Shown here in pieces: positions 3,005 to 62,600 of a stretch of 64,000 nt of DNA. The notes under the pieces are model-generated. The model was not told the DNA's origin, did no database searches, and worked only from the letters and a program-made list of their open reading frames with translations. A program made the position numbers and the translations under genes. Position 1 is the first letter of the stretch. Each line of letters begins with the position of its first letter. Source of the DNA: Antennarius striatus (taxonomy: Eukaryota; Chordata; Actinopteri; Lophiiformes; Antennariidae); contig NC_090784.1 of NCBI RefSeq assembly GCF_040054535.1, forward strand, positions 17,143,001-17,207,000, in the 5' to 3' direction.

Positions 3005-6000
3005 TTACTGAATGTTGGTCTGTAAAAGTGTACATAATCCAATTTCAGGATCTGATTTGAGTTTTGGAACATTTCCGGCCTCCTGCACAGGCCTGGAAAC
3101 TTCTTCATCCTCGGAGCAAGGGGCCACTGGTGGGCATGAGTCAGCCATCAGGGAGCCTGAGCAACAAGACCACAAGGGAAGGGGTTTTTTTGTTTTGTTT
3201 TTAAGATTAAAAACACACATAAATTAATAAAAGCCTTATGCTCAATGTGCCTCCTCTATTTGTAAGTGGGTGAATTGCCATCTGTTTCTAAACAAGAATG
3301 TACTAACCATGTTTTGATCTGATCCAGTGTAGAAAAGGTTTGATTTTGGTTACAAGAATAACAGCAATTCCTGCAGACAGAAGGCCAATTATCACGAGAG
3401 ACCCCGCTGCATCTGCAAGAATGTGCAAAAGAAACATCCTGAAGTACAAACTTGAACACCCACGCAAGAAGAATTTCAAGTATTTCTAGTTTTCAGGGCT
3501 GAAGGGAGGGAAGACAGTAAAATCAGCTCCGTTTGATAATCCTGTGAAACGATGAAACTGTCCTTGGTTCAGATTATTTACTGTGATTCCCCCAGAGGTT
3601 TCTTTTTAAAAAAAAAAAAAGCTGATCAGACTATCTGGTTTTGCAGTCACATAACATGTTTCACAATTTACCCAGTTGATTTGTGTGCACTCTTCACTTA
3701 TGCTGCTCTTAGTCATTAAGAACAAGTTTTTTTTGTATTATCGTTAATAATTACGTAATAATTTGATGGCTGTTCTGCAATGTGGCAGAGGTTCTGAATA
3801 ACCACTCATCAATCAACAGAGATGTAGCAAGGAAAATTTAAAAAAAGAATGCAGACTCTTATGCAGATGTTTTCGTACCAAAGTATAAAAAGATGGAAAA
3901 AGTGTTGTATTCTGCAAAACTGATGAAAGACAACATCAATCACAGTCTAACTTTAAAAAGTACCTCCTTTAAAACATATTATCATCGCCAAGTTTAGTAA
4001 ATTGAGTATTTATGCCGACACAGAACAACATTAACCTTCTTTTGTATTATACTGTATTTCATGCAACTCACTCTGCTGAGCTTGCTGGTATTAACTGTGT
4101 GTCATGATTGAACATGGGAGGGTCCTACCTGTACCTGTAGTGGATGGAGGCAGGGTGGGTTTGGTGGTTGGTATCGGAACACACTGTTTGCAGGGCTTCT
4201 CTTTGCATTCATAACCAGATTTACATCTGCACTCAGCATTATGAGTGGAGTTACAGTCTGACTTATACTCCATGTTTGCTGTTAAAAAAAAACAAAAAAC
4301 AATCGATGTCATTAAAATACAAAGATATGATTATAATTCTGAGTTTGAGTGACATAGAAGATTTTCCTAAAAGTATGAGAGAAACCAAAAATATGCTTTT
4401 TCACAGTAGCCAGTTCCATCCTCTATCATGTCCTTCCACATTGTTCTCCATATCTACCAATTACTTCCCCATCATCTCTGTCCACTTCACCAACATACCT
4501 GTTAAAAACCACTCCAATTACCACTCTTTCATGCTTGGGAACACACTCCACTCCACCGATAATCTCCTTCATCTCACAACCAGCATATGCACTGATGACA
4601 TTTATCGCTTCACATGGATCACTCCGTGAAGGGTTAAGGTCAGGGTGACACTTGCTTAACCTTCAGCATGCTCTTAACATTTTCTTCTTTCAGAGATTGG
4701 TTTCCTGTACACACACTCTATAAGCCATTCTCCTTTCCATTGTATCAGTTAGCTCCCATTACAGCTAATATTCTAAGTCCCTGCTTACAAATTCACACAT
4801 ACTGTAATTTTTCCTACCCTCCATCTGCCTCTGGATGAAATCAGGATTAGAATCAGAATAAGAATTAGAATGTTTCTTCAATTCCCAAAGGGGAAACTGC
4901 TTTTCGTACAGTTACACTGCTCAAGACAGTGCAAGAGAAAATATTAGAACATGAGAAATGATCAGGATAAATAGAGAAAAAATTGGAATAAATAAGAGAA
5001 TTTAAAAGTATATACAGGTATAGTCAACGTTCTGTACAGCGGATGGTACTAATTGTCTAAGATGACCTTTAACTTGCTCGATATCCTCCTCTCCATCACC
5101 ACCATCATCCGCCTTCATCCCAACAATGAAACCAGCCCTGCAGATCAGTCTGTTCAGTCTGTTGGCATCTGCCACCCTCAGACCACTGACTCAGCACACC
5201 ACAGTGTAGAGGAAAGAGTTGGCCACCACATAGTGGTCAATCATCTTCAGCATGGCGGTACAGATGTTAAAGGATCTCAGCCTCCTCAGGAAACAGTGTC
5301 TGATGCCCTGTCATCTCTTTCTGTACCTCTATTTCCATCAAAAACGGATTTTTAGGACCCTACTAATCTGCTACCTGTGTGTCAGACCAAATTTTCTGAC
5401 CTGAATGGCCCTACCAGCACAGCTCTTGGGGTCATTGGGACACATAAACCACCCTAAGGGGGTGTTACTACAGGCAGAGTAAACGATTGTTTTTGCAGGC
5501 ACAGAATAACATGAACTTCATTTGTGTAATATTTCATGCTGCTGAGCTTGCCGGTATTAACTGTGTGTCAGATGTGATTGAAAATGGAAGGGTCCTACCT
5601 GTACCTGTAGTGGACGGAGGCAGGGTGGGTTTGGTGGTTGGTATCGGAACACACTGTGTGCAGGGCTGCTTCTCTTTGCATTCATAACCAGATTTACATC
5701 TGCACTCAGCATTATGAGTGGAGTTACAGTTTGACTTATACTCCATGCTTGCTGTAAAAAACATTTAAGTGTCTTTAGAATGAATATACAATCATATGAT
5801 CATAAGTCTGAGTTTGATTGTGACATAGAAAAATGCACAAAAAGCTTTCCTTAAAAATATGAAAGGAATGTTAAAACAAAAATGACTTATGTGGCACATG
5901 CCAGATGAGTTTAGTTTTCAGTCACAAAACAGCTCAAGTGATCCACCTTAAAGACCCACTACAGAAGGATATGGCTTTGATGAGACATTCATGTACAAAT

Positions 6001-8267
6001 ACTTGAAAATGCAGGTGAACAAAAATTACTGACACGACCCCATGAAGCCTAAAATCTGTCATCACTAAAATCTGTTTTTAACAATCAATTTAATTAAGAG
6101 TATTCTGAAGCGCAAATGACTCATTATATGATTTTGTGTAATTTAGATTGATGTAAGAACTTCAGACACTAGTTGATAAATGTTCTACATGTTACTATTG
6201 TCAATGCCCATTACTACCTACAGCTAAAGCCTAATCATGACTTCAAACACAGATACCAGTCCATTAGTTTATTGGAATTTATTATGTTTGTCTTTAAATT
6301 TATTATCTTCCCTATATTCATGCTTTCATTCATGTTTCACTGTGCTGACATTGAAATACCTTTATAATTACAGTTTAAATGTTATTAACGATCCAAAATT
6401 CTGCCAGTGAGAAGCATAACCCCACATATTTTAATGCGAGACTTCACTCTATATTTGACTGCTTATTTAAAAATCACATTTTACCATGAAGAAACTTATC
6501 TAGAGATTTTGGTGCTCGTCTAACGGTTTTAGCTGCCTTAAGAGGGTCGTTTCATTGTCTGTCATTCATTGTTCCATTTTGAAACAATAACATATTAATG
6601 CAAAAGTCATGAAATGACCACATTATTTTAGAGTTCCATACTGGATTATAAAAGGATATGCATTAAAATGATGGCAATAGAAAAGTTGGAAAGTTATGAG
6701 TGTCTGCATTATGCACTCATAGCAGTAGATATAAATGATTATGTGACTGGTTTAAGGGGATTTGAGAACTTAAAATATATGAAAATGATTTTAATTTGCT
6801 GTAAATATGTGGCATGATTGCTCCTTTCAGTCATGCACATCTTAACTTGAGAATCATCAACACTCGAACACCAGCAGCTGTTAATGTTTTCTGCGTGCAA
6901 AATGTTCACTGCTACAAGGTAGAGCAAAAACATCTTAGCCCTGTTTTCATAATGTCAAACTTCATTAAAATACTCCTCTACCTACAGACAGAGAGAATCA
7001 CATACTCTCACTCACTGGTGTGGTTTTCTCATATATGCTTTCCACGGTGACATTTAAAAATAAGAAGAAAAAAATAACAGTATGTTTTTGCTCACCTGTA
7101 ACAAAATGTGAATGTGAATAATAACATAGGATATGACATTTGTGTCTGCTACCTTTCCGATGTTTACCACTTTTCTGTGTTTTTCTTCTTTTTTTTTCCA
7201 CTGACACAATGATGGTCTACTTCTTCATGCCTTTGCCACTGTTGGTGGGCTGTGCTACTGGTACAGCTGCTAATACCATGCATGCATGATTTCTGCTGCA
7301 GATTCCCATCATAGTAACGTCCTGAACTGGTGGGTTTTGCAGACCCCCCATCCCCCCATCCCCTTCTGCTTTTAGTCTCTCTCTCTCTGACTGTATCCCA
7401 CCATGACACACTGAATGGGAAACCCCCCTGTATGTTTGACTAAAGGGTTTCTATGGGCAAACTTCTCTGAAATAACAATCTACAGACAGAATTGAGAAAC
7501 ATTCAGAAGGCGTCTCTAAGGTTTTGTGCTCTAACTGGATGAGCTGATCATTAGGATGAGACATAAATGATGAGTCACTCACACATCACAACCTGATATA
7601 TACAAAATAATGAAAGAGACGTAATAAACAGAGAGGGATTAAATAAGTTGAGTAACTACCATTTGTGTTTCTGTAGTTAAAGCTCTATTTAAAGGCTTTA
7701 ACTTTTGCAACTTTTTTCTTCAGAATACACATATGATACTCCGGTAGTCAAACAATATTATTTACATATTGGTAAAGTACAGAATGTACTGAGTTGTGAG
7801 CAAGAGGATATGTTGGTAACACTATGGACAGAAGATGTTGTCTACCAAGGCTGTTTCAGTGGTTGGTCTAAAAGTAGGTCTTTCACACAGTTCAGGTCTT
7901 ATCTTGTTGTGACATTACTCACGTCGATCGCAATTTTTGCAGAATTTGCAGGTCAGCTCCTTGGTGTAGGTATCCATGTACCGCTTGCCCTCACAATCGT
8001 CACACTCAATTTGACAATCATCAAGACGACGGACCAAATGTTTACCTGAAACACCCACAGCAAATGATGTCTTCTGTTGCCATCAAAACCATGATTTCTC
8101 TCAAGATGTCAAGATGTAATTTTACCTGGTGGACACATATTACAGCAGAATTCAGGCTTCAACGGTGGCCATGGATATTGCTTCTCATTGCACTGTATGG
8201 AAAGCACAGAGGAGAGGAAAGAGAGACTGCATAGGAGAATAGAGGGAAAATAATGGAGTGGCTGCAT
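3005..8267 (-). CDS. cd27: CD27 (TNFRSF7) with a duplicated CRD3 exon
   Basis: Minus-strand exons: 8267-8126, 8045-7923, 5751-5605 (CRD3 copy A), 4278-4135 (CRD3 copy B), 3412-3308 (membrane) and 3156-3005 (tail, stop 3007-3005). With both CRD3 copies the product is 270 residues, close to human CD27 (260). Exon 1 gives a signal peptide and CNEKQYPW...FCCNMCPPG, matching the human CPERHYW...LCCQMCEPG block. Exon 2 is CRD1/2. The CRD3 exons read CNSTHNAECRCKSGYECKEK, close to human [20 protein letters not shown], followed by a Thr/Pro stalk. The membrane exon is followed by a tail with RPVQEAG; PVQE is the TRAF2/5-binding form corresponding to human PIQE. CD27 binds CD70 and costimulates lymphocytes. 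The gene is convergent with the LTBR-like gene and divergent from TNFRSF1A. Whether the CRD3 exons are used together or alternatively cannot be read from DNA. Confidence 0.88.
4020..4400 (-). repeat. Tandem duplication, copy B (second CRD3 exon of CD27 plus flanks)
   Basis: This block and 5495-5895 are near-identical over the CRD3 exon, the end of the upstream intron and the start of the downstream intron. The exon in this copy is 144 bp, one Gln codon shorter than copy A. Outside the exon the copies have diverged by scattered substitutions and small indels. The separation is about 1.47 kb. Confidence 0.85.
4850..5465 (-). mobile_element. 5'-truncated LINE 3' end, L2/Rex1-like
   Basis: Read on the minus strand, this stretch has the layout of a common teleost LINE end. 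It starts with a remnant of the C-terminal reverse-transcriptase ORF (a run resembling AEILQHLYRHAE...VVANSFLYTVVC), continues with an AT-rich 3' UTR, and ends in a CCCCTTTGGGAATTGA-like motif plus an imperfect ATTCT tail. The ORF is broken by stops. It lies between the two CRD3 exon copies of CD27, so it inserted after the duplication or formed part of its spacer. Family assignment is from pattern memory and approximate. Confidence 0.5.
5495..5895 (-). repeat. Tandem duplication, copy A (first CRD3 exon of CD27 plus flanks)
   Basis: Partner of 4020-4400. The exon is 147 bp (5751-5605), begins and ends in phase 1, and has an intact acceptor (TTTTTACAG) and donor. A second in-frame donor lies six bases further on in both copies. 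Confidence 0.85.
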
Positions 8268-12182: not shown

Positions 12183-15100
12183 ATGGAGGGGGGTGTCCAC
12201 AGAGGAAGATGGCGCAAAAAAACACTTGTTAGCACAATTCTACTCCTGGTGAGACAAACTTGGGGTTATTCACTGAATACTTTGAAACGGAATTTATTCA
12301 TAAAAACTGCTTTTTTGATGGAGAGTAAAACTTAATGCTGACTACATTAATTTATATTAACTCTGTTTTGTTTTACAGTACATGTTCTTCCCATCGGTGG
12401 CCTTGTTAAATCCTTTAGAGGAGTTGACATGTCGTCCCTGGGAATACCTCACTGACAGTGGAATCTGTTGCGACAAGTGCAATGCAGGTACTGCATGACC
12501 TCCTGCAACCTCACACATAATGATTATTTGAAATATCACAACTTTTTTCTACAATCAGATCCATTCTGCAAACTCTTACTGGGTTTACATACAACAATCC
12601 TGTTTTGCAGGTTTAAAACTTGTAGAAGAATGTCATGGGGTGAATCACAGAAGTACATGCGCACCCTGCCCATCTGGACAATATACAGACCAAATGAACT
12701 ACTCCCCCAATTGCAGAACTTGTAAACGCTGCAAAAGTAGAGTAACATTAGTTTGTTTTTTTAAGAAAATCAGATTTCCCTGTTTGATTTCCACAGTTGC
12801 ATCTGCTAATGGTCACCTTTTGTATTCTTTTTCAACTGGATACAGGGTCAAATCATGAGGTGCAGGTATCAGAATGTGAGAGGAGCAAGGACACTATCTG
12901 TCGCTGTGAAGAGGGTTATTACAACTATAAAATTGATTCAGTAACAAATGAGTGTCTCCGATGTAAAAAGTGTGGACCTGGAGAAATGGAAACAAAAAAA
13001 TGTAAGTTTTAAGCTCTAAAGATGTGTTAAATTAAATGCTGTTAAGTTTGCTTAAAGCTGGTCATATTGAATATAGACAAATAAAAACTCCATTGATGCT
13101 GATGCCTCAGGTTCATTCTGAACAGATTTATTAATTTTGCATACAGGTACACATGAAGAAAACACTTTGTGTGAATGTCGAGAGAACTACTACAGAGTTA
13201 ACAACATGTGTGAATCTTGCAAGAAGTGAGTATACAACAGTATCAGAACTTTTGGTGCAGCCATTGTTCCCATTGTTCCTGGTTTTTCTGATGCTTCCAT
13301 TTAAAGTCATTAAAGGGGAAGTTGGTTTGATGAACCGAAACTTGGAGAACACGGCTGACGTCGCTCAATCTTTCCATTTGTTGGCAACTGAAAATACAAG
13401 TAACATGACAGAAAGACTGAGTCTCAGACATTTAAAGAATCAGTCAGACAAGGGGATATCATACAAATAGAATATCTCTTGATTAAAAAAGGAAACCTCC
13501 TGATGTATCCCATAATTTTTATCTACTCTCTTATTAATATAAGGATGTGAATGTTGCCACTAAAGGTGATTGTGACAGATGAAGCATTATCCCTATTTTA
13601 ATTACGATAGTACTAATTTTCTGCGTAATCATTTTAGGAACCTATGACATGCTGACAAGGAGATGATTTATTTTATTTTATTTTTTAGAGAAAGCCTGTT
13701 CACCATTTTGTATATAACTTCCTCATTATGTGCTCTGTTTCCTCCTCAATGTTGTGAAACGTCCTCTTTTTTTCTCCACAGTTGCACCACTGATTGTGAA
13801 CATCACTGTCCATCACTTCCCACACTGGATACAAAAGGTGGGCTGTCCTAACAAGGATGTGAATCTGTGGTTAGTTTTGTGTGGGTGAAATAAACTGGTT
13901 TCCCAGAGTGACGATCGAGTTGCTGTGGGACTGCGGTGTGCTTAATGCTGGCTGTACATGAGATGTGTGAGATGAACTACAGCCGTTTGACTTAAATACA
14001 CAAATACAATTGAGACACTGCCCAGTGGTCATACTAGATATAACTGTCGGAATTGTCGTTGGATTTTGTAAAGGGATAAGATTAGAGTAAGTAGGCTTTG
14101 GAAAAGATCAGTCATAGACAGGTCTTCAGGCCTCTGTCCAATTCATTCCAAGAGGAGTGTAAAGCAATAACATATATAACTTCCTTATGACTCATTTATA
14201 TGTAAGAAAACAAAGAACATCATACTGAAAACAGCTATTAGAACTCATAGAGGGTTTCTACAGCAGTTCAATTTTAGGTGCACATTTTCACACATTTGTG
14301 TTCGAAGCTTATTAACAATATTCACAATGAGCGTTCACAGTTGAAAAAGTACATACGTACTTCTGATTTTCTTCCTTGAGTGTCATTTCAATAAGAGGGC
14401 TTATAAAGTCAGAAATTGACTCAATGAAATTTGCAGAAATTCTACATATAAGTGAAATATCCCTTATTTTTTTGCAGATATGCCTTTTATGATAATATTT
14501 TGTATTGTTGCCTATCTAAAGTGTTGATTTCCCTGTCCTCTTTCTTATTTTCACTTTCCTCTCATAACAAAGCTCCAAATTTTGGGACGGAGTACATCAT
14601 CAACATCGTTTGCGTAGTTGTAGTTGTGACTTTGGTTGTGGCTGCAGTCACTCACTTTGTGACAAAATGGTCTACCAAGAAGAAGTTGAAGGAATCTCCA
14701 GCCCCAAAAACTGAGGTCTCCCCAGACTCATGTGAGGTAAGCAAATCTAATTTACTCTGTTTGTGTTTCTCAGGTTCAGGAACATTGAATGTCACAAAAA
14801 TCTGATTTGTGCTTGTTTTGCAGGAGGTCTTAATTCACAGTGAGGAAGCTTCAGTTAGTGTTAAGGCTGAACCCCCAAGTCCTATGAGGGAACATGAGCA
14901 GCCGTCCAATCTGCCGGACTGTGTCCCCTTTGAAATCAAGAGTGAGTGCATTTTAAACTACACAGGATACATTGTACGCCTTAGACCAATAGCCTCAATC
15001 ATCTCAAACACATGGAAAACTTCTACTAACTCTTGTCTCCTTCCTCTCAAACCCCTCTCCCGTTTTCACCCACCTCCTCAGTCCATGACATGATTTACAC

Positions 15101-26100: not shown

Positions 26101-29100
26101 GCTGTGAGTAATATTCCTGTTCAAATACAGGACTATGAAATGTATGTAAATATATTATCAAGTCCATCATGATTTCTCCTCTTGTCTCAGGTTCCTTTGT
26201 TCTTATAGAGGTTGGTGAGCTTCACACTGCAATGAACGTCTACGTATTTACAGCCAGCACTACAGAGCGCTGCTCCACATGGATCTCCACCATCCAGCAG
26301 GCGAAGGTAAAACTCCTCCTAAGATTTTTTAAAATAATAGTTATAATCCTTCAATGGTGGCCTCAAGACAACTGTTGACTGCGCAAGCCTTTGGTCCAGA
26401 CTGCAGTGTGTGAGTGTGTGAGTGTGTGAACGTACGATCATAATCCCCGGAGTATGAACCTTATACCTTTTCATGTTGACAGCAATTTCTGCTATTCAAA
26501 TAACTACCTCTATCATGAGGTCTGGTTCAAAGTGAAATGTCTCCAAACTATTTATATAAAAGATAGTAACAACTCTTGATAATACTTCTTTGATGATTCT
26601 AGCTCCATCATCAGTTAAATTTTTACTACCATGAATCAGTCATCAATACCTCCTGGTACATGATGCCAGCTTGATAGGGATAGCATGATAGTGTCATGCT
26701 TCTTTGTGGACATGCACCATCCTTGTTAACATAACCAGAGCACTAAAATCTTCAACATCAGGTTCTATGCGAAATAAGTTTCTTCTTCTTTTAGCTCCTG
26801 TAAATAAATGTATTCATCAACAATTTCCAAGCTTTGTCTAAAACAACAAACAAACCTCTCCACATATTGTTTTTGAGAAATGTGATGCATTCACTTATCC
26901 ATGGACAGACTCATCTGTCCTTTTATTTGACAATACTTAGCATATATTCGATTGCTAAGAGACTAAACTGAAATGTGATATTGAAAATAATATGTACTTA
27001 GCATGACCATGTTAAATAAAAATTGTTCATTATTCATTGGTTGTTTTTTTTTTGTTACTGTAATGTTTTGTCAGGAAACACTAAATCATTGGAGAGAGAA
27101 AGAGAGCCTCAGACGAATGGACAATTTGGAAAACCAGCAGCTAGGGGTCAAACCAGTAGAAACAACCAAGATTGAGGATATGATTGAAGAAGAAATTCCT
27201 TTTATCCAATCAGAAAGAGAGGCTTCTGTTGATGAACTTGATAAAGATATTATAATACCCACATCAGTCAATGGATTACTAGCATCTAAAGAAGCAAATG
27301 AACCATATAAACCTCCAGACAAGAGAGCCACTTACAACACTTCTATATCTTTATTTAACTTCCAGCCCAGTAAAAATCATTTTGCAGTAGTGCACAAGGG
27401 TCAGCACCAAGCAGTCAGAGGATATGAATGGATAGAAATGGGAGTGAGAAGGCAGCAAATTGGGATTCATCCAGAGGAAGGAGACAGAATGCATGAATCT
27501 GTCCTGATAAATAAGCAAATGGTGGCCTGGAATAACATGGCGCAATCTACCCCTCATCTGGATTGTTTACCTCAAAATACGGCAACTAATCACAGAAACA
27601 ACAGAACTGGGCAACAATTCCTTTTAATAGATGAATATCCAGAGATTGACTACCCAACAGATGAAGATAGTGTCTTACAAACTACAAACCAACTAACAGC
27701 ACCCAGCCAAGGACCTGAGTTTGTACTGGGAAATGAAGGAATATCAAGAGAGAGAGACTCTTTGTTGAACCAGGACACAAGGAAGAATTACAGCCATAGC
27801 CTACCTGCTGACATGGGGACATCTCAGTTGTCTTGGGCCAAAAAATTGAAGTCACCTCGGCTACAGAAGAGGAGGCTGGTCACAACTGATCAGAGACCTC
27901 TTTCTCAGACATTCTCTCAGAACCAAAAACCAACTTGGTCTCCTTCTTTTTCTGGCCCAGGCAACTACACAACCATCAAAAAGACTTCTGTTACTTCTGG
28001 ACCAAGCTCTGGCTCACATAGGGTGCTAAAACTGGGCTCTTTGAAGCCAAAACAAGACTTGTTTTGGGATGTGCATAATGATGTTACTCCAGATGTCCAA
28101 CCACTCTCTGAACCTGAGACGTCAGATTTCAGCTCCTATGACAAAATGGTCAATGTTAAAAACCATAGGAGTGCCTCCATTCCTTATATTAGTTTTGAAA
28201 GGGACCTAGAACCTCGTTTGCACTCCAGCAGTATGATGGCAATAACCCAAGCAAAGGAGACACAACGTTGCTACACACAACATAATCACAGTGGAAAGTC
28301 CTCTCCTCTGGAGGGTCTTTTGGAAAGAGCCACTGCCAGAGTGAGGGGTAGAGACAGATCAAAAACAGATGTAAATGTGATAACAGCCAATGTGAGGTCA
28401 AGAAATCCCTCTCCTTCTCCCTCACTTTCCATCGCACCATCGATATCACACAGTGATGGAGACAGAGACACAGACCTTGAGGATGAAGTGAAGGTAATGC
28501 GGCACAGAGCTCCCACAGTGAGTAAAGGATGGAAGGAGCAGCTGGTGGATGGAGACGTTGATGGCGATGAGGAGAGGGATAGGTCAGTATGACAGTCTAC
28601 ATTTATGTGACAATTGAAGTGTATTTATTCACATTTATGATAAAAACTAATTACAGTGCATGAAATTCAACTTTAAGTCTTATAGGTCCCGTTAGCCATG
28701 CCTAGTTACACCTCTGGTTTAAATCCCAATTGTTCAGAGCATGGACACAGATACAGATTATTGAACATGGGTATAGATAATGTTCATCCCTCATCAACCA
28801 CTACACTACCACTGCAATACTTAAACAGAGTCATTCATTTCTCAATTACTGATGTATGTGGAAGTAGAAAAAAGAAATAACAAGGCAGTCAGAGACTGCA
28901 ACATCCCACGACACCCTTGAATTCAAAATTTTACCCTGACCTACTTTCATAATGGTCACAGCAATGAATGCTTGATGTGTATCTAAAAAGGTACAAAAGT
29001 ACAAAATTTTACTTTGACCTAGTTTTTCAAGGTCAAGGTTGTGATCTAATTTTCATCCCCTTGCCTCCTTGAATATAATGCCTTTTGTATAGTCTTTGCC

Positions 29101-30931: not shown

Positions 30932-33390
30932 TCAGTTTAGTGCTGTGAGATTTTTTTCTTTGAAGTGTCTTTCCATTTTCTGTCCATTCTTTTGTCTCTG
31001 CTCCTGCTCATTAGATATGGTATGAATGACCGTTTCCAGCGCTGGGTACGGGAAAATCCTTTTTCTCTGTTGAAATAAGACATGCAAGATTTTTCAAAAA
31101 CAACTGCATTTCAAGATGTAACGTATAATTTATTTTATTAGTTTAGTATGTTTAGTGTATTTTTTTTAATCAGTATTCATTCTGTAATACTTATTTTCAA
31201 TATAAAAGTTGAAATCAGTTAATGTAGTAAGAGTATTTCTTTCAACTATTAAATTATTATCTTTGAACAAGAAATTTTCACCTTAACACACATCTTTCTA
31301 TTCAAATTTAAAACAGAAAAAATGGGCTTTTCAAAGTCTTTACCCTTTGGTGGTTCTTGTATGTCTTAAACAAAACTAGCAACAGAACAAGGAGGAGACA
31401 GCTGAACCCAATCACAGCGCCATTGTTATATGAGAGACCTGATGCTTCATGTTCGAACAGACCACCTGCAAGTAAAATCAGTATAAAAAGAGTTTTGTGT
31501 ATTTTATAACATTAGCAGCGGTCCTCAGTATTTCTAGTATATTACACATTAAATTAACCTACTCATTAGTGGAAAATGGTAGCTTATGTTCCCCAGCATG
31601 CCTTCTTTCCCATAGAAACGGCATATCCATTCGCCCTGTGCTGCCGCTGATATTTTGCTAATTTGTAGAGTTTTCCCACTCTGGATGGACACAACCGATT
31701 GGCTTCCACTGATGTCATAGACCACATGAACCCACTCATAGCGGGTGATTTCTGTTGTGTCGGTCAGCAGGCAGGTCAGTGTCACAGAGCCTTGTTTATG
31801 TGACAAGGTGCTGCTGTCGACTGAGAGAAAACCAAGTTTTATTTATTGTTTTTCACTCATTGTCATTAGGAAGAAATATCCAATTACTAAAGCTTGAACT
31901 AAATCCATGAAAGCTTACTTTTAGCAACAACAAGCTGCATGCTTCTAGTCAGCTGCCGTCCTTCCATGGTTCCAGAACATCTGTACGTGCCCTCATCCTC
32001 AAATGCCACTTCTCCTAAAGTGGCAGAGTTATCCAACCTAAGTTGAGAGGACTGAGAGAAAGAGACGGGAAGGTGACCAGAAAACGCAGGTTTCAGCTTT
32101 TCCCACCGTTGTAAAGAGGGAATTAAATCAGAGAACACACAGGGGAGTGTGACTGCAGATCCCGCAGCTGCATACACGTTAGTGTTGTCTTTGGGCGGTT
32201 GAATGATTCCTGTGAGAGCACAGGGGTAAAAGAAAAAAGCATATGAGAAAATAAAAATCTTAAAATCTTAACATGGCTCCATTTTCTACTTCTTATTCAT
32301 ACCTATCAGGGCCAGAGTTGCTGAAGCTCGCCCTTCTTTACCCCTGTAGCCCACAATACAGCTCCAGTTCCCGCTCAGTCCAGCAGTTGCTTTTTCCCGC
32401 AAAACACTTCCAGCCATTCCTCTGTTTGTTATGATTCCAGTTTGAGACACAAAATTGTTGTTCAACATCCATTGCACACTTGCTCCATAAGCCCAAGGAG
32501 TCATATTACAGCTGATTGAAACATTTTTCTCTGATATAGCAGCTGAAGGAGAGACTGTCACTGTAAAGGATACAGATGAGGACGAGATTTTGAACATGCG
32601 ACATCTTTGGTCCACATTTAACGGGTAAAAAAGTGTAAATGTAATGTAGTAAAAAGCCAAAATGCTATATTTAATGACTGTAAGTTGGTTTCTAACCTTT
32701 TATGATTCGAAGCATGACCACATTCTCATAAACCTGATCTCCTTTGGCCAACGTGCAAAAGTATTTTCCTCCATCCTCCTCCATGACGTTGTTGATCTGT
32801 AGACTATAATCACCTCTTTCAAACTGGGAGTGGGGGCATTGTATGCGTTGGTTCTTTGTAGGTAACCAACTATAACCCCAGTACTGCAGACCATTCTTCT
32901 CCTTTTTCCAAACAGTGCTGTCGATAGATAGCAGAGATATCACAATCTTCAGCATGTGGAGTCATTATTCTGAATGAGATGAAGATAAAGGCTGGGATTG
33001 TAGGGACATTAAGGCATTCGATGGTGCAGGGAGACGGTTATATAAAGCAAAGAGGGAATTTACATGGGCGATTAGTTGCAGCAAACACAGTTTTACCTTA
33101 CCCTTTGTTCGCTTTATGCCAGATGATGACAGGAGAGCATGTGGAGAACAGGCTGCATTTACAGGGTAATACAGCCTGGGAGCCTTCTGCAGCAAGCACC
33201 TCAAGGACCTCACACTGAGCTGCTGGGGAAGAACCATTCATTTAAAAAAATCTTTTTAGTTTATAAAAAAAAATAACTCCAAGGAACATTTCATCACCAA
33301 AAGTTCAAAAGTTGTGGATGGAAAATAAATCCTAAATTTACCTGTCAGAAGATAGGAAATCCCCCCCAAGATGACAAACATCAACAACAT
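30932..33390 (-). CDS. lag3: LAG3, MHC class II-binding inhibitory receptor
   Basis: Eight minus-strand exons in phase: 33390-33342 (signal), 33222-33102 and 32917-32697 (Ig D1), 32560-32303 (D2), 32209-31919 (D3), 31820-31563 (D4), 31465-31344 (membrane) and 31066-30932 (tail), 484 residues. D2 ends SGNWSCIVGYRGKEG, matching human SGPWGCILTYRDG. D3 opens NVYAAAGSAVTLPC (human TVYAGAGSRVGLPC). D4 ends LGNISYHFPL (human LGAAVYFTEL). The tail RIFPYPALETVIH matches human RRFSALEQGIH, which separates LAG3 from its paralogue CD4. The human tail KIEELE motif and Glu-Pro repeat are absent, replaced by a basic Gln-rich tail. D1 appears to lack the long Pro-rich extra loop of mammals. LAG3 restrains T cells. 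It is convergent with PLEKHG6, about 600 bp between stops. Confidence 0.88.
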
Positions 33391-50297: not shown

Positions 50298-53200
50298 TTA
50301 TCTCATGACCTGCATAAAGAAAAGTGTAGTGATGATGAGGAAACCCAGAACCCACCAATAGGAATCTGTTAAGTGAAAGACAAAGAGAAGAATTAAATTA
50401 TAAAGCACAGGATGATTTAAGTGTACAAAACAAGATACAGTACAACGGTTTCTGTTTAACACACAAATTTTAGATAGTTGTTAGCAGCAGACATCAGAGT
50501 GGTAGACAAACATTTCAAGTACCTGGCTGACGACATTCTACCACCAGACTGACAGACAGAGTAATATGTGGGTCCAAGTGTGTCACCCTGCAGATGATTT
50601 TAGTTCCAGCTGAAACAGTGGAGGGCACAGAGAGGTGAGACGTCAGGGAATAAGTTCCATCGCCGTGCTGTCTGTGGCTGGACAGAGAGCCCTGATCTGG
50701 AAACAGCAGAGGCTCTTTGTCTGTTGGAGAGATGAACAACCACTCCATCTGAAATGAAGACAAAAGCAGAGTGTTGTGATTAATTAATCATTCAGTTAGT
50801 CAATCAAACAAATATCCTTCACATAATTTAGTGCCATCCAAAGTTGATATTCTATAAATATGAACAGTAAAACTTATGAGACCAATGATTGTATGAAAAA
50901 TGGGTAAATCCATCAAAACAAAAATGCATGTAAAAAAGCTGATATTGTTCTAGACAATCAAAAAATGAAAAAAAAAACACACAATGTTTTGTTTAAAATA
51001 ATGTCATATTGACATGACTCTTGTTAGTTGTGAGCCGTAATCAAGCAGGATAATGTTTGTTCCATTTCTATTCTTTCTAATCTAAAAATAAGTCAATTAA
51101 TATAAACCAACACTGTTAAGTGATAGGGATAAAGGGATAACATATCTGAGAACATGCTGGTAACAGACCTGAACATCCAGTGGATAGTATTTAGTGGAGT
51201 GGCAGCTCAGTGTCTGAGAAGACTCTGATTTAAAATACAACTTCTCCTTTGACAGGAAGACATGTGGTGGTTCTGAAACAAACAGCAGCAGAGGAAGAAC
51301 TGCTGGACATTCTGAAGATTTTTTTTCTGAACTATAAGAAAGGAGCTGCAACTTACGAGTGATGTGGAGCCGAATGGCCTGCTGGCCATGCAAAGGCCCT
51401 ACAGTGACAGTACAGATGTAGGTCCCTTCATCCACTACTTTCACGTCGCTCAGAGTCACAGAGGCGTCACCGTCCTTAACAACCCGGGTTGCATCCACAG
51501 TTGAACCACCCCGCTCTGCATGAACTGAGGACAAATATGAACAAGAAAACAAATTTAAATAAAGATAATCCTATTTGCTTGTTATGGGAATTTACATATT
51601 TACATATCACACGATAGAAATTATAAACCTTAAATATCTTGTGGTTTGACAGCAAATTTCATGATGCTAAATAAAGCAGCATTCAAAAGAAAATAAATGT
51701 TTTTATTGCCATTAATTTAATGTTTTATCAACTTATGCCATACATGTAGAGTCGGCGGCACGGTGGCGCCTCACAGGAAGAAGGTTCCGTGTTTGATTCC
51801 ATTCTGTGCAGAGTTTCTATATTCTCCTGTCTGTGTGGATTTGTTCCACGTTTTCCGACTTCTTTCCACCTCCAAAACATACAGATGATGTGAATTGGTC
51901 ACACCAAATCGTCCTAGGTGGAAGTGTGAATGTGTGTGTTTGTTTGTCTTTCATGTGACCCCGGTGATGAGCTGGGATCTTATCTGGGGTGTAACCCACC
52001 TATCAGCCGTAGCCAACTGAGATAGGCTAAAGCAGACTCGTGACCCACAAGGCAGATAAGCGGTTGTAGATGAGACAAATGCGAAATGGATGGATGCAAT
52101 AGTTTATACTGAGCTATTCCTCCTATATAAAATGACTACTTGGAAGCAGTAATAGAACATCATCAAAAGTCAGAGGGCCACAAATAGTAATCTTCACATG
52201 TGAAATCTTCCTGAAGACCCTGGATAAATGTCAAGAGGCCATAGACACTCAATTATAAAGCGCTTACCCACAGAACTGCCATCTGCATCATCCAGCCTTG
52301 TCTTCATTTCAAGCACTTTTTCCCCTTTGCCCCTGTGCTGCATTCGCCATTCAATTCCCACCTCCTGAGCTAATGGTATCGCCGGCTGCTTGAAGCGACA
52401 GGTGAGGACAACTTCACTTCTCAGAGGGGCAGAGACAGACTTTTTGTCAGAAAACACCAAGAATATCACTATGGAACAGACAGGTTTAACAGCAGAAGGA
52501 AAAAAAAACAGACTGATGTTAAAGAATAACTCACAAAACAAGAAGTGGAAGCAATTAACAGCAACAATGAACAAAGATAAAATGGAGATCAAACTCAGCA
52601 TCTCACCCTCAGTCAGAAGAGTTCCCATTGGGCTGAGAGGCAGACCCAGTTTGTTTTGTATGAGGGCTGACTCATTCTTTTTCATCGTCAAAGTTTCCAG
52701 CACAAGTGTGGTGCTGAACTCAACACCTTCCACAGCAAGAGAAACCATGAAATAGGCTGGATCTGAGCTTTCTGAGGATTCATGAGTGAAGAAATGGCTT
52801 AATTCACACACAACCTCCTGTTCATTGCAGTCTGCGTGGAGCAACAGGTTCGCATGTGGGATCTGAGGTGATGACACTATCACAGACGGGTGAGAAGAGA
52901 AGTTTAACACATTGTTCTTACATCACACCAAATTTTAGTCTCAGAGAGGGTAGGGGGAACCTTTGGCTTCTATGAGGATGGCATCCGGATCAGGTGGTGA
53001 AGGTGGGACAAATGGAGTGATAGTTTCCAGTGCTTCCCCAGAACCCACTAAAACATCTTTGAAGATGAGGGTGGCTGGAGTCTTTGAGAGGAGAGCGCTG
53101 TGTCCCATTCCACCCACCTCTAACAAGGAGCAGGGAATCACGACATCTGCAAGCCCATTACCTGAGAGAAATGGCATGAATAAAATCTGTACAACACCAT

Positions 53201-54407: not shown

Positions 54408-57400
54408 TCAGTTTTCCTTCATTGTCCTGTTGATCCAGTCGAGATAGTTTAAGACTCTGGTATATACTCCATATGTTCCCTGTTGTCCACAGTTAACCCC
54501 CCAGCTGACAATCCCAGCAGCCCAAAAGACTCCACCATCACTTATGACGAAGGGACCTCCGCTGTCACCTTGACAGGAATCCTTCCCTCCTTCAGGGACT
54601 CCAGCACAAAACATGTTATTTGTCAGACTTGGTACTCTGTCCTTTGTGCTCTTTGCAAAAGTGATTGAAGAGTTGCATATCTCCTGCTCCACTACAGGCA
54701 GCTGCACATACTTCAGTTTATTTGTTAAAATCTGTCGTTTTCCAACATCTGAGATGCCGAAACCCGACACCAGCCTAAAAATAAATGTAGAAGAGGCATT
54801 TATTGTGAAGTCAACTGAAAATACATAAAAAATTTAAGCCTCCTGGCAAGAATTATTCAGTGCCGGAAAAATGCAAATAAAAATAACTGTGTTCACTGAC
54901 ATAAAAGCAGAGAAACTTACTGCAACAATATGTAAGGATGTACAGTATAACATTAAATAGAACTTAACACTCATAGCTTTACCCTATTGCTCCGTTGTCA
55001 TATGTGGCGTCCTCTGCTGGTAGACAGACAGGCATAATGGATGCGTTGAATGTAATTGTGTCTTGCAGTTTTATCAAGGCTATGTCGTTGCTGAAGTCTA
55101 GGAGGTTGGGGTTGTTGTAATCAGGGTGAATATGGATTGAAGTAGCAAAAACAGGAGCGCTCATCAAGGTTTTAACATTAGTGAGTCCCATGAAAGTCTG
55201 TAAAATAATACCACAGGTGAAAAATCAAACATATGATGGTAATGGCATTGCCGGGATCTGTTTTGTTAGCATGCTTACATACCCTCACAACCTCATTTGA
55301 TGCTGGATTTCCATTTTGTATTAGAACATGAGCTGCAGTCATAATCCAGCGGTCTGCAATCACCATCCCTCCTGCTCTTTTTCCATCTACACTCAATAAC
55401 ACCTGCCAAGGGATGGTGTTTTTTGGAGCTTCACTTCCTCCAATGATCCTCTGATAGAGTGAGATGTGTTTTGTGGGCTGACCACAGACTGAATGGGATA
55501 CAAATATATGTTAAAAGTTTCAAAATGTTTCCTGTTTAATAGAACATTCTAGACTTGGTTAACAATACCTGGTATGCATGTTGGGCTGATAATAATGTTG
55601 ATGTTAGATCTCCACTTTCTGTCTGCTTCACAGGTGTAGATTGCTGAAGAGCAGAGATACCACAGAATAAAAATATAGATCGATGCGTGTCTGTACAAAT
55701 ACATGCATGCAATATTATTGGATGCAGTTACTGAAGCAACATTTTTCTCTTTAATCAACTGTATCATTATTGTTAAAATAATGATCGTATGACAGTGTTG
55801 TTAATAAACTACAATTTGCCCACACTCAAACAAATTCAACTCTAATGAGTTTCAATCTGCTAATGAGACCTGTTTATTTTAGGAATAGTAGGAAACATCT
55901 AAACCAGTAGAACTTGGAACACAGTATGCAAAATTCTCACCATTTATGTCACCAAGGAGGGAGTAAAAGGGTTCATTGCAGTGATATTGAACAACAGAAA
56001 GGTACTGATTCTGACTGCCGGACAGAAAGGTCAACCCTCCATTGAGCAAAGGTTTGGGTTCTCCACAATCAATAACTGCAGATGATCAAAGCACAGGCAT
56101 ATTAAAATTTGTAGGTGAAGTAAAATGAAGAAAAGCATTCATTTATTTCCAAACTTGAAGGTAACATACTGTGACACTCTGGCAGAGGAAGGTGCCACTC
56201 TCCATGGCTCTGGCACATAGCAGAGAAGCTCTTCAACTCCTGCCCATCCTGACAAAGAAAATAACTTATATAATACCAGCTTATAATTAGTTTTTTCATA
56301 CCTCATAATAAACAATGGATGATGTTAAACATCAGACATAAATCTAACCTTCATCAGCTTGTAGCCTGGATCACAGCGCACAAAGATGTAGTCTCTGTAG
56401 AGATACTCCGACAGAGTAGGAGTGACCCTGCCGTCAGCTACTTTGCCAGGAAATGGACACTGAACTCCTGGAAATGACATAAACAACAAAACATGCAACA
56501 ACTCCATATTTATACTTGTTTAATTTCCAATTATGTTTCTTCCTCTTGATCTCACTGTTTGTGTTGTAGTCCAGACTCCAGCCGCTGCTCAGGCCGTTGT
56601 CATCGGTGTGGTAGTCCAACGTGACAATGCTGGAGTTTGTATGTATCAAACCTGGACTCTGTGTACCACACAGCTTTCTGGGCTCCCTGTCTGGGATGGT
56701 TACCTTTTCATAGAAGAGTACAAAACTCATTTAACATATAACATGTAGTTGATTAGTTTATTTCTACTTATTCTATATTCAGCTACTGTTCATTACCTTC
56801 AACCAGTGATAGAGACAGTTTGGGCCCTGCGGCGTGTCCACGCTATCGATGTTGAAGTTATCAGTGAAGTTTAGAGAGACGGTGAAGCCAGGTTCTACGG
56901 AAATGATGTACTGACAGAAAACACCGTGAGGTGGGGCATTCGGGTAACCCGGGCTGAACAGATGTCCCTCTGGCTCATCAAATATACCCCCACTGCAGGA
57001 CACTGGACAGTCAGTGAAAAATGACATGATTCATGAAGATTCTGTACTCGTCTTCTCAACTCCATGAGCTTCGACATTTGCTCATTGTTCAGTTAAGGAA
57101 TCAGGACCTTTTTTATGTATTAGTATACCAGAATATTTTGCTCTATATGCAGTATATCCTGGAGCTGCTTGGAAACCAGGCAACAACTAGCACATCATAT
57201 TCTTTCCCAACAACACATTTTTGCGCATCTCCACAATGCTCACAAACGCAGGTGCTCTGATCTGAGCGAAGCTCGAAGCCAGGGTAACAGGAGCAGAGGT
57301 ACGAGCCCAGGGTGTTGAGGCAGATCTGAGAGCACAGTGGACCTGAGCCGTCTCCAGGTTCTGGTGCTGAACACTCATCTATGTCTGAAAGTGAGAAAGA

Positions 57401-59655: not shown

Positions 59656-62600
59656 TCATTCCTCTGCTTCTGTTGCCTCTATCGTCTCCTTAATCCAGTC
59701 TACATAGTTTGTCACTTTGGTATAATAACCCTTGTATTGCCTTTGCTGACAGGGTGCTCCCCAGGATACAATGCCTGTGAGATAAAAAGGCTCTCTGCCT
59801 TCAGCCAACATGGGGGAGACAAATGGACCTCCGCTATCTTGCCCACAGCTGTCCTTTCCCTCTGCTCCAGCACAGAACATGTTGTCAGTGAAAATCATTT
59901 GTTTGTTTTTTGATGGGGAAGGTGTGTTTTGGCATTCTGTGAGAGAGTAGACTCCGATATGAGCAAATTTTAAGATAGGAGATATGACAAAAAGAGCTTT
60001 CCTCACGTTCGTCAATCCCCAGCCCGACACTGTGCCTTGCTCATTTTCCATCAAGCTCATGTTTGCCTCTGGCAGACAAATGGGAAGAAGGTTTGGGCCT
60101 AAATTTACCCTGGAAGTAAACCTGATGAGAGCAATATCATTGTCATGATTGGTACGTTCTCCAATACCCTTGACAAAGTTGGGGTGAAATATGATCCTCT
60201 CAGTGTCCAGGACAGCTACATTAGCTTCACTGTTTGTTGTTGTTCTTCCGTCTACCAGTCCACCATACAGCCGTAAAGATGTTTCCTTTATGTTTTCCAC
60301 AACGTGAGCAGCTGTGACAGCCCATCGGTCATTGATTAGAGATGCTCCTCCTCTTCTCTCTCCCACTTCCTGCCCTTTAATCAAGAGGTGCCAAGGAATT
60401 TCTCCCAGGTTTGCAGACTGACCTCCTAAAATCCTGGCAGTACTGACAGGATGTTTATCAGGCTTCCCACAGACTGAAATTCAAAAACAGCCATCAATAG
60501 ATTCACATGAAAAAGGTCAAAACTGATGGATATCATCACAAAATACAAGTAATTAATTTAAAGGTCATACCTTCAGTGCATTTTGGCATCTCCGTCTTTC
60601 CACCATTTGACATCCATTCACCTTCAGCATTGCAAGTGTATGTGTCTGAAAGATGGGACAAACACTTTTAAATCAAAGCAGAGCCCTGGAAAGACTGACT
60701 CAAGGGAAGTAAACACAAAATGGATGTGAACATGAGTTCTATAGCTACCATCTCCTTCCAGTTGGTAGTACTTTGAACTGCATCTGAGCTGGATCTGATC
60801 TTCATACTGTGTAGACAGACTATCTGAACCCACTATCTGAAGGATGCCATCTTTGGGGATATCAGGAAAACCACAGTCCACCACTAGAAAAAAAAATTCC
60901 GTGAAAAGAATGTCAAAAAAAAAAGATTTTGGTTGTTTTTTTTAAGGAAACAGAAATCGGTTACAGCCGGACTCACGTTCACAGACGTAGTTTGGAGTCC
61001 ATAATCCAGTTCTCTGACATGTGGTCACAAACTGCGATGAAAGGGTACGGGTGCTTTGCTACACAGCAAAAAGAACAGATTCAATATTTCATGCTGATCA
61101 ATGATATTGATACATCTCTATATACTCACAATATTCATAACATAGCCAGGCTCACAAGAGACTGTCACTGTTTGACCCTGATGATATTCAGGTTGCTGAG
61201 GAGTTGCTGTGGAGTGAGCCGTAACGACCGCTGGACACACCTTACCTGCATGCGGTTAAAACGAAAATAACCATTTTGGTTATTTGTGATGAGTTTTCAT
61301 CAAACTACGTATCATTTTTTTAATGTTATGTCACTGATGATGATGCATCTGTACCTCTGGTTTGGAAATGGAGTGTAAAGCCTTTGTTGCTTCCAAAGCC
61401 ATCTGAGGTGAAGCGGATGTGGACATGACTGGAGTGGGTGAGGAGGGGAGATGGGGGAGGAGTGTGGCCACAGAATGGACCCAGAACCCCAGAGGGCGTC
61501 TCAATCTGTGAACAAAACAATATTTTATTGTAACTAAATATATGTTTTAGTAATAAAAACACTGTAATAACCTCCTGTAATAAAGCACTGGTGTGTGAAT
61601 GATTGAAGAATTTCATTTGTGCTTGAGAGGGTCTGTTGTCGAGAATCAGAAGTTTGGATGGTTAAAAGGGAGCTCACGCATTCCACCATGTTACAGTATT
61701 TATCACCATAAATTTGCCCTCCCCACTATGAAGTTGGGACCAGCAGAACCATGGGGATGTTTTTCTACAGCGGCCTCTGGGGGGCAAAGATTGAGGGTAA
61801 AATAAAACTGGTTTGGAAAAGAACAATCTGCACAAAATTTGCAACCCGTTTGATTTGTTTTCCAGCGAGAGAATCAAACAATCTTTTTTTCGTTCATTCA
61901 TTTTCTCGAACCGCTTCATCTGCTTGCACGGTTTGCAGGGAGCTGGAGCCTATCCCAGCTGTCTTGTGGTGTGAGGCAGGGGGAAACTCCAGGTGCAACG
62001 CCAGTGCACCGCGGAGCCACACAGAGACAGACAAACACGCACGCACACGCTCACACTCTACGGACACTTTGAAGCCGGCCAGTTAACCCGAAGCGCATGT
62101 TTTTGGAGGTGGGAGGAAGTCAGGGAACCTGGAGAGAACCCATGCAGACACGGGGAGAACATGCACACTCCGCATAGAGCATTTATGTCTGAATTTTGGA
62201 TTCAAACCCGAAACCGCCTTGCTGTGCGGCAACAGGGCTACACACTGAGCCACCGTGCCGAACCTGTCAAACAATCTATTCTGGACAAATATGCCTTTGC
62301 TCAACTGGAGCACCACTATCCAATTACAGTATCATGTGTTTTCAACTCAAAGATCTCTCTGTATTCACATTTGACCTTTGTTTGACTTTTCATATCACCA
62401 GATCAAGAACAGTAACTAACATCCTGTAACTGATTGCTTGCTCTATAATAAATTTTATAAACATATTTGACATATTTACATCTTCTGATACATCACCTAC
62501 CCTCAGTGTGTCTATGCATTGTCCATCAGGGCTTTGCTCTATATCAAAATCTTCAGAGAAGTGCAGCTCCAGCTGCAGGTGGGCCTCCACAGATAAGGTG

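Follow-up and report, generated by a model that had tools for sequence, protein, structure and literature searches.

A TNF-receptor ectodomain lengthened by internal duplication is known from human CD30 (TNFRSF8), which contains six cysteine-rich domains (CRDs) while the mouse protein contains three (PMC11826918). The CD27 gene of the fish Antennarius striatus, described here, resembles human CD30 in this respect but differs in extent, since several CRDs are duplicated in CD30 and both halves bind ligand, whereas in the fish gene a single exon is concerned, which comprises the last part of CRD2, a truncated CRD3 and stalk. Splicing alters the CRD number of another B-cell TNF receptor, human TACI, in which the short and long forms differ in ligand binding; unlike in fish CD27 it is a CRD1 exon that is skipped, and no duplicate is chosen or added (PMC6176016). 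Tandem duplicated exons of animal genes, i.e. adjacent homologous exons within one gene, form a further parallel, and of the human substitution events annotated, over 90% are stated to have bony-fish orthologues (PMC9741552, PMC9013439), whereas the fish CD27 pair appears young. Mammalian CD27, the best PDB match of the fish protein, consists like it of CRD1, CRD2, a truncated CRD3 and a stalk (PMC5417320). The human CD27 chains hold a single copy of the region corresponding to exon 3 whereas the fish gene holds two, and the free stalk cysteine of human CD27, thought to make dimers (PMC5417320), is absent from the fish stalk, which contains no cysteine. The arrangement in the fish is of known kinds, tandem exon duplication and variation of domain number in TNF receptors, and not categorically new; it amounts to a modest but clear alteration in the structure of a gene, seen in a single fish genome. 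Among the open-licence papers listed on the subject, none, judged by title and the start of the abstract, concerns exon duplication or isoforms of CD27 in fish, and nothing useful was found in that literature on exon phase in TNF receptors.

The stretch of DNA analysed (hereafter the window) covers 64,000 nt of Antennarius striatus, assembly GCF_040054535.1, contig NC_090784.1, positions 17,143,001–17,207,000 of the forward strand. CD27 is located on its minus strand as a five-exon coding gene in which the third exon is present twice (3a and 3b), with the following features (positions within the window):

8126..8267, minus strand, CD27 exon 1, coding portion: signal peptide and beginning of CRD1; phase 1 at its end
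7923..8045, minus strand, CD27 exon 2: remainder of CRD1 and C1–C4 of CRD2; phase 1/1
5605..5751, minus strand, CD27 exon 3a: 147 nt, phase 1/1; C5–C6 of CRD2, truncated CRD3 and Thr/Pro stalk
4135..4278, minus strand, CD27 exon 3b: 144 nt, phase 1/1; second copy of exon 3
3308..3412, minus strand, CD27 exon 4: transmembrane segment, judged by eye
3005..3156, minus strand, CD27 exon 5: PVQE-containing cytoplasmic tail, stop
5478..5830, minus strand, duplicated block, copy A: 353 bp, 82.8% identity to copy B with gaps counted
3996..4359, minus strand, duplicated block, copy B: 364 bp
4360..5477, minus strand, unduplicated spacer between the CD27 blocks: 1.1 kb, carrying an old dispersed repeat fragment at ~4857–5304

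The PVQE sequence in the tail is taken by us to be a motif of the TRAF-binding type. The repeat fragment at ~4857–5304, situated in the intron between 3a and 3b and presumably LINE-like, has at least 45 matches genome-wide including itself, and the others, at least 44, show 68–80% identity.

The initial annotation, made from the letters of the window, had described two tandem, open and phase-symmetric CD27 exons, and both are present, flanked by AG acceptors and GT donors and in phase 1 at either end. It had further proposed that a receptor could be made with either copy or with both, and this is possible, as all such frames are open; the four combinations of the two exons give 222 aa (3a), 221 aa (3b), 270 aa (3a and 3b) and 173 aa (neither), each uninterrupted. 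Adjacent homologous exons in one gene, homologous intron flanks, equal phase and a preserved frame together correspond to a tandem exon duplication.

The identification of the gene as CD27 was supported by its structural matches and by its neighbourhood. When searched against PDB, the best matches were three human CD27 sequences (6.2e-11, 1.9e-10 and 2.5e-8), with Fas next (7.5e-6). A TNFRSF1A-like gene, read as four exons at 12379–13224 on the plus strand and with TNFRSF1A as its best match (1.7e-17), is located ~4 kb from CD27, and in mammals TNFRSF1A lies close to CD27. The two CRDs and the truncated CRD3 with its CxC hinge align to the human CD27 chain in cysteine order and in the CRC motif. 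Pfam gave a match to TNFR_c6 (PF00020) of 20.5 bits (E 0.00065), which is below the curated cut-off of 29.4, and none of the 20 genome-wide TNFR_c6 matches listed falls within the window.

In the alignment to human CD27 the last CRD2 cysteine within fish exon 2 is C4, and exon 3 contributes C5 and C6 of CRD2, then the hinge, the four cysteines of CRD3 and finally the stalk. The exon had been annotated as a CRD3 followed by a Thr/Pro stalk; the stalk and a truncated CRD3 are indeed encoded, but the domain is not self-contained, the exon starting with C5–C6 of CRD2. As either copy closes CRD2, either one joined to exon 2 would give an ordinary CD27. In the TNFRSF1A-like neighbour the phase-1 cuts of the coding sequence likewise fall between C4 and C5 or else inside the codon for C5, so that an exon carries the cysteines closing one CRD and opening the next. 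With the cut between C4 and C5 in phase 1, one duplicated exon therefore inserts exactly one six-cysteine period.

The in-frame tandem duplication of CD27 exon 3 is real. The local alignment of copy A with copy B scored 431, whereas 20 shuffles reached 27 at most, and within the window the DNA of the duplicated block matches only itself and the other copy. When the assembly (548 Mb, 42 contigs) was searched with 281 bp covering 3b, two matches were obtained, both at the CD27 locus, while the DNA over CD27 exons 1–2 gave a single genome-wide match. A genome-wide protein search with CD27 returned six matches corresponding to CD27 exons and, outside the locus, a single distant one (27% identity, E 2.7e-5). 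A third copy or remnant of the exon was also considered and rejected, the protein scan of the window giving the two copies (E 1e-28 and 1e-24) and otherwise values of E 0.6 or worse.

Comparison of 3a and 3b showed 140 of 144 aligned bases to be equal (97.2%) with one in-frame codon gap, whereas the intron flanks of the two blocks agree at 60 of 77 bases upstream (77.9%) and 109 of 123 downstream (88.6%), the difference between exon and flank identity having Fisher p = 7e-6 and 0.006, respectively. Indel events number one in the exon, in frame, and seven in the flanks (two upstream, five downstream). Of the bases from -40 to -5 before the exon, 23 of 36 match, and the first 15 bases past the exon are identical. 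The differences between the copies are S/N, N/D, the gap of one Gln codon, T/K and one silent change; those listed in the initial annotation stand for N/D, Gln and T/K, but the reported S/A-type change is S/N, alanine appearing only at the join of 3a to 3b. The nonsynonymous changes, 3 at 111 sites, are fewer than the 31 at 200 sites in all flanks (p = 0.0003) and fewer than in the downstream flank alone (p = 0.012), while the silent change, 1 at 30 sites, gives p = 0.09 against all flanks and p = 0.31 against the downstream flank. The divergence corresponds to a rough age of about 6–35 My (assuming between 2.5e-9 and 1e-8 substitutions per site per year), suggesting that the duplication is fairly recent.

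Had one copy been dead, the probability of at most three nonsynonymous changes, counting substitutions only, would be 0.024 at the rate of all flanks and 0.12 at that of the downstream flank. In simulations run at two flank rates, in a model that leaves gene conversion outside, an open pair with no more than three amino-acid changes arose from one dead copy in 0.08% or 0.55% of 4000 runs and from two dead copies in 0 of 4000 runs in both settings. Because runs with a dead copy so rarely yield an open and nearly identical pair, both copies are probably working exons, with gene conversion confined to the exon as the chief alternative.

The splice sites were scored with a vertebrate matrix. Among the 347 AGs in the gene the acceptor of 3b ranks 1st (12.07), that of 3a 20th (7.43) and that of exon 2 42nd. 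The annotated consensus splice sites exist as AG and GT; the donors named are, however, not the best ones, as a stronger donor, CAG|GTAGGA, is found 6 nt further downstream in both copies (8.58 vs 4.87). Among 332 GTs these +6 donors rank 3rd and 4th, and the donors of the initial annotation 22nd and 23rd. With the better donor the exons may instead be 5751–5599 (153 nt) and 4278–4129 (150 nt), in which case the stalk gains Gly-Thr, and the three combinations tried with it all stay open.

The evidence outlined above bears on several explanations of the two copies. An assembly artefact, in which two alleles placed end to end would pass for two copies, is highly improbable. Alleles usually differ by well below 11–22%, and the 22% upstream and 11% downstream by which the intron flanks differ here was judged too much for two alleles; the flanks are in addition parted by the 1.1 kb spacer, which has a full-length match nowhere else, and the assembly, in 42 contigs, contains the exon at two genome-wide matches in a window without any Ns. 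One copy might on the other hand be silent or rarely used, and owe its likeness to the other copy to gene conversion from it or to chance. The copies differ by four substitutions only, and since divergence at silent sites (1/30) is as low as that at nonsynonymous sites (3/111), gene conversion limited to the exon could mimic constraint; the weaker acceptor of 3a compared to 3b (7.43 vs 12.07) also fits a copy in little use. Divergence nevertheless rises sharply, from 4/144 within the exon to 13/36 at -40 to -5, so that its boundary lies at the splice site, where a conversion tract need not stop, and both splice sites have been kept in both copies. Together with the rare outcome of the simulations with one dead copy (0.08–0.55%, conversion being outside the model), this makes a silent copy unlikely.

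The remaining question concerns the way in which two working copies would be combined. Strictly mutually exclusive use of 3a and 3b would give two receptor variants differing at four positions, and several observations are in line with it; many conserved vertebrate pairs are known, with 236 human substitution events (PMC9741552), mutually exclusive splicing has been proposed, in a model cited in PMC9013439, as an inevitable consequence of duplication via competing RNA structures, and the single forms would retain the disulfide partners of CRD2. Docking RNA helices were considered as a device for exclusion. An 11-nt site in the spacer, at 4628, can pair with both downstream flanks, but 109 of 200 dinucleotide shuffles equalled it, and the best site in intron 2, also of 11 nt, was equalled by 122 of 200. 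In the remaining dual-pairing tests 31 to 199 of 200 shuffles were as good, and thus none of the six tests showed an excess of intron sites pairing with both copies, and they gave no sign of such helices. The intron between 3a and 3b is 1326 nt long, the tandem frame is open and the two products of exclusive splicing would be almost alike; furthermore, PMC9741552 describes tandem duplication as common, but not the splicing of such copies in a mutually exclusive manner. Taken together, exclusive use of the two exons is considered rather unlikely, though it keeps a small share of the probability. Since the intron is not short, the tandem frame is open and the dual-pairing sites are at chance level, co-inclusion is preferred as the default, and an in-gene tandem duplication with both copies kept as working exons and often included together is considered reasonably probable. 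According to this co-inclusion reading, a short duplication within the gene copied exon 3 along with ~80 bp of the preceding intron and ~130 bp of the following one, and both copies would have been kept as coding exons, presumably by selection, while the nearby intron drifted. Many transcripts would then contain 3a and 3b together, and the single-copy forms would arise by skipping. Young and nearly identical exons of this kind illustrate how the count of cysteine-rich repeats in an immune receptor can vary with no duplication of the gene itself.

In the tandem form the extra exon would add one more six-cysteine period to the ladder of the receptor. The two leading cysteines of 3b may close the truncated CRD3 of 3a over a Thr/Pro loop, or they may instead bond to one another, in which case a longer domain would result on the stalk side. 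The C4–C5 loop of a full CRD3 formed in this way would span 23–25 residues, compared to 10 in CRD2. In the tandem protein Pfam identified TNFR_c6 once only (20.1 bits, below the cut-off of 29.4) and no second TNFR_c6; part of 3b gave a weak hit to hEGF (E 0.073). It is quite doubtful whether the tandem form has a full third CRD, built from 3a and the first two cysteines of 3b, followed by a truncated fourth, and whether a switch between short and long forms sets the reach or the ligand choice of the receptor.

The suggestion that the differences between the copies fall near ligand-facing loops was poorly borne out. The putative CD70 site on human CD27 comprises mature residues 57–68 (PMC5417320), and in the alignment the matching fish stretch is located in exon 2, which is not duplicated; mutagenesis has pointed to R90, H92 and E94 of CRD2, in the numbering of that study (PMC8921514). 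In structure 7KX0 CD70 touches both CRD2 and CRD3 (PMC8921514), and exon 3 could therefore play a part as well. The N/D change is situated just before C5, at the position aligned to the glycosylated Asn75 of human CD27; neither fish copy has a sequon at this residue, and both have an NST sequon just after C5. The T/K change is found between the two final CRD3 cysteines. No obvious orthologue of CD70 was reported in the fishes examined in PMC7674686. In the present genome 12 TNF-domain matches were found, and for neither of the two compared with PDB was CD70 listed. If both exons are used, fish CD27 would offer natural length variants, helpful for studying the role of CD27 in animals without an obvious CD70.

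Several other features were observed around CD27. Another TNF-receptor-like gene on the plus strand is placed tail-to-tail with CD27, running from ~9085 to the end of L003 and from 1 to ~2300 of the window; it was joined by hand from fragments, its extent into the window was set by eye, and its best match in PDB is CD40 (9e-10). Judged by eye, the exon of the hinge region in this CD40-like gene resembles the CRD2/CRD3 exon of CD27. An open frame of 533 codons at 26991–28592 on the plus strand, with no Pfam family over its cut-off, is possibly a large coding exon. Immunoglobulin-type exons are found on the minus strand at 31899–32267, 32286–32699 and 51097–51570, with Pfam matches near or below the cut-offs and the third just above, and these possibly form a small receptor cluster. 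Pieces of serine protease domains are located at 59656–60480 and 54408–54833 on the minus strand, the first best matching complement C1s (4e-46), and they perhaps represent a C1r/C1s pair.
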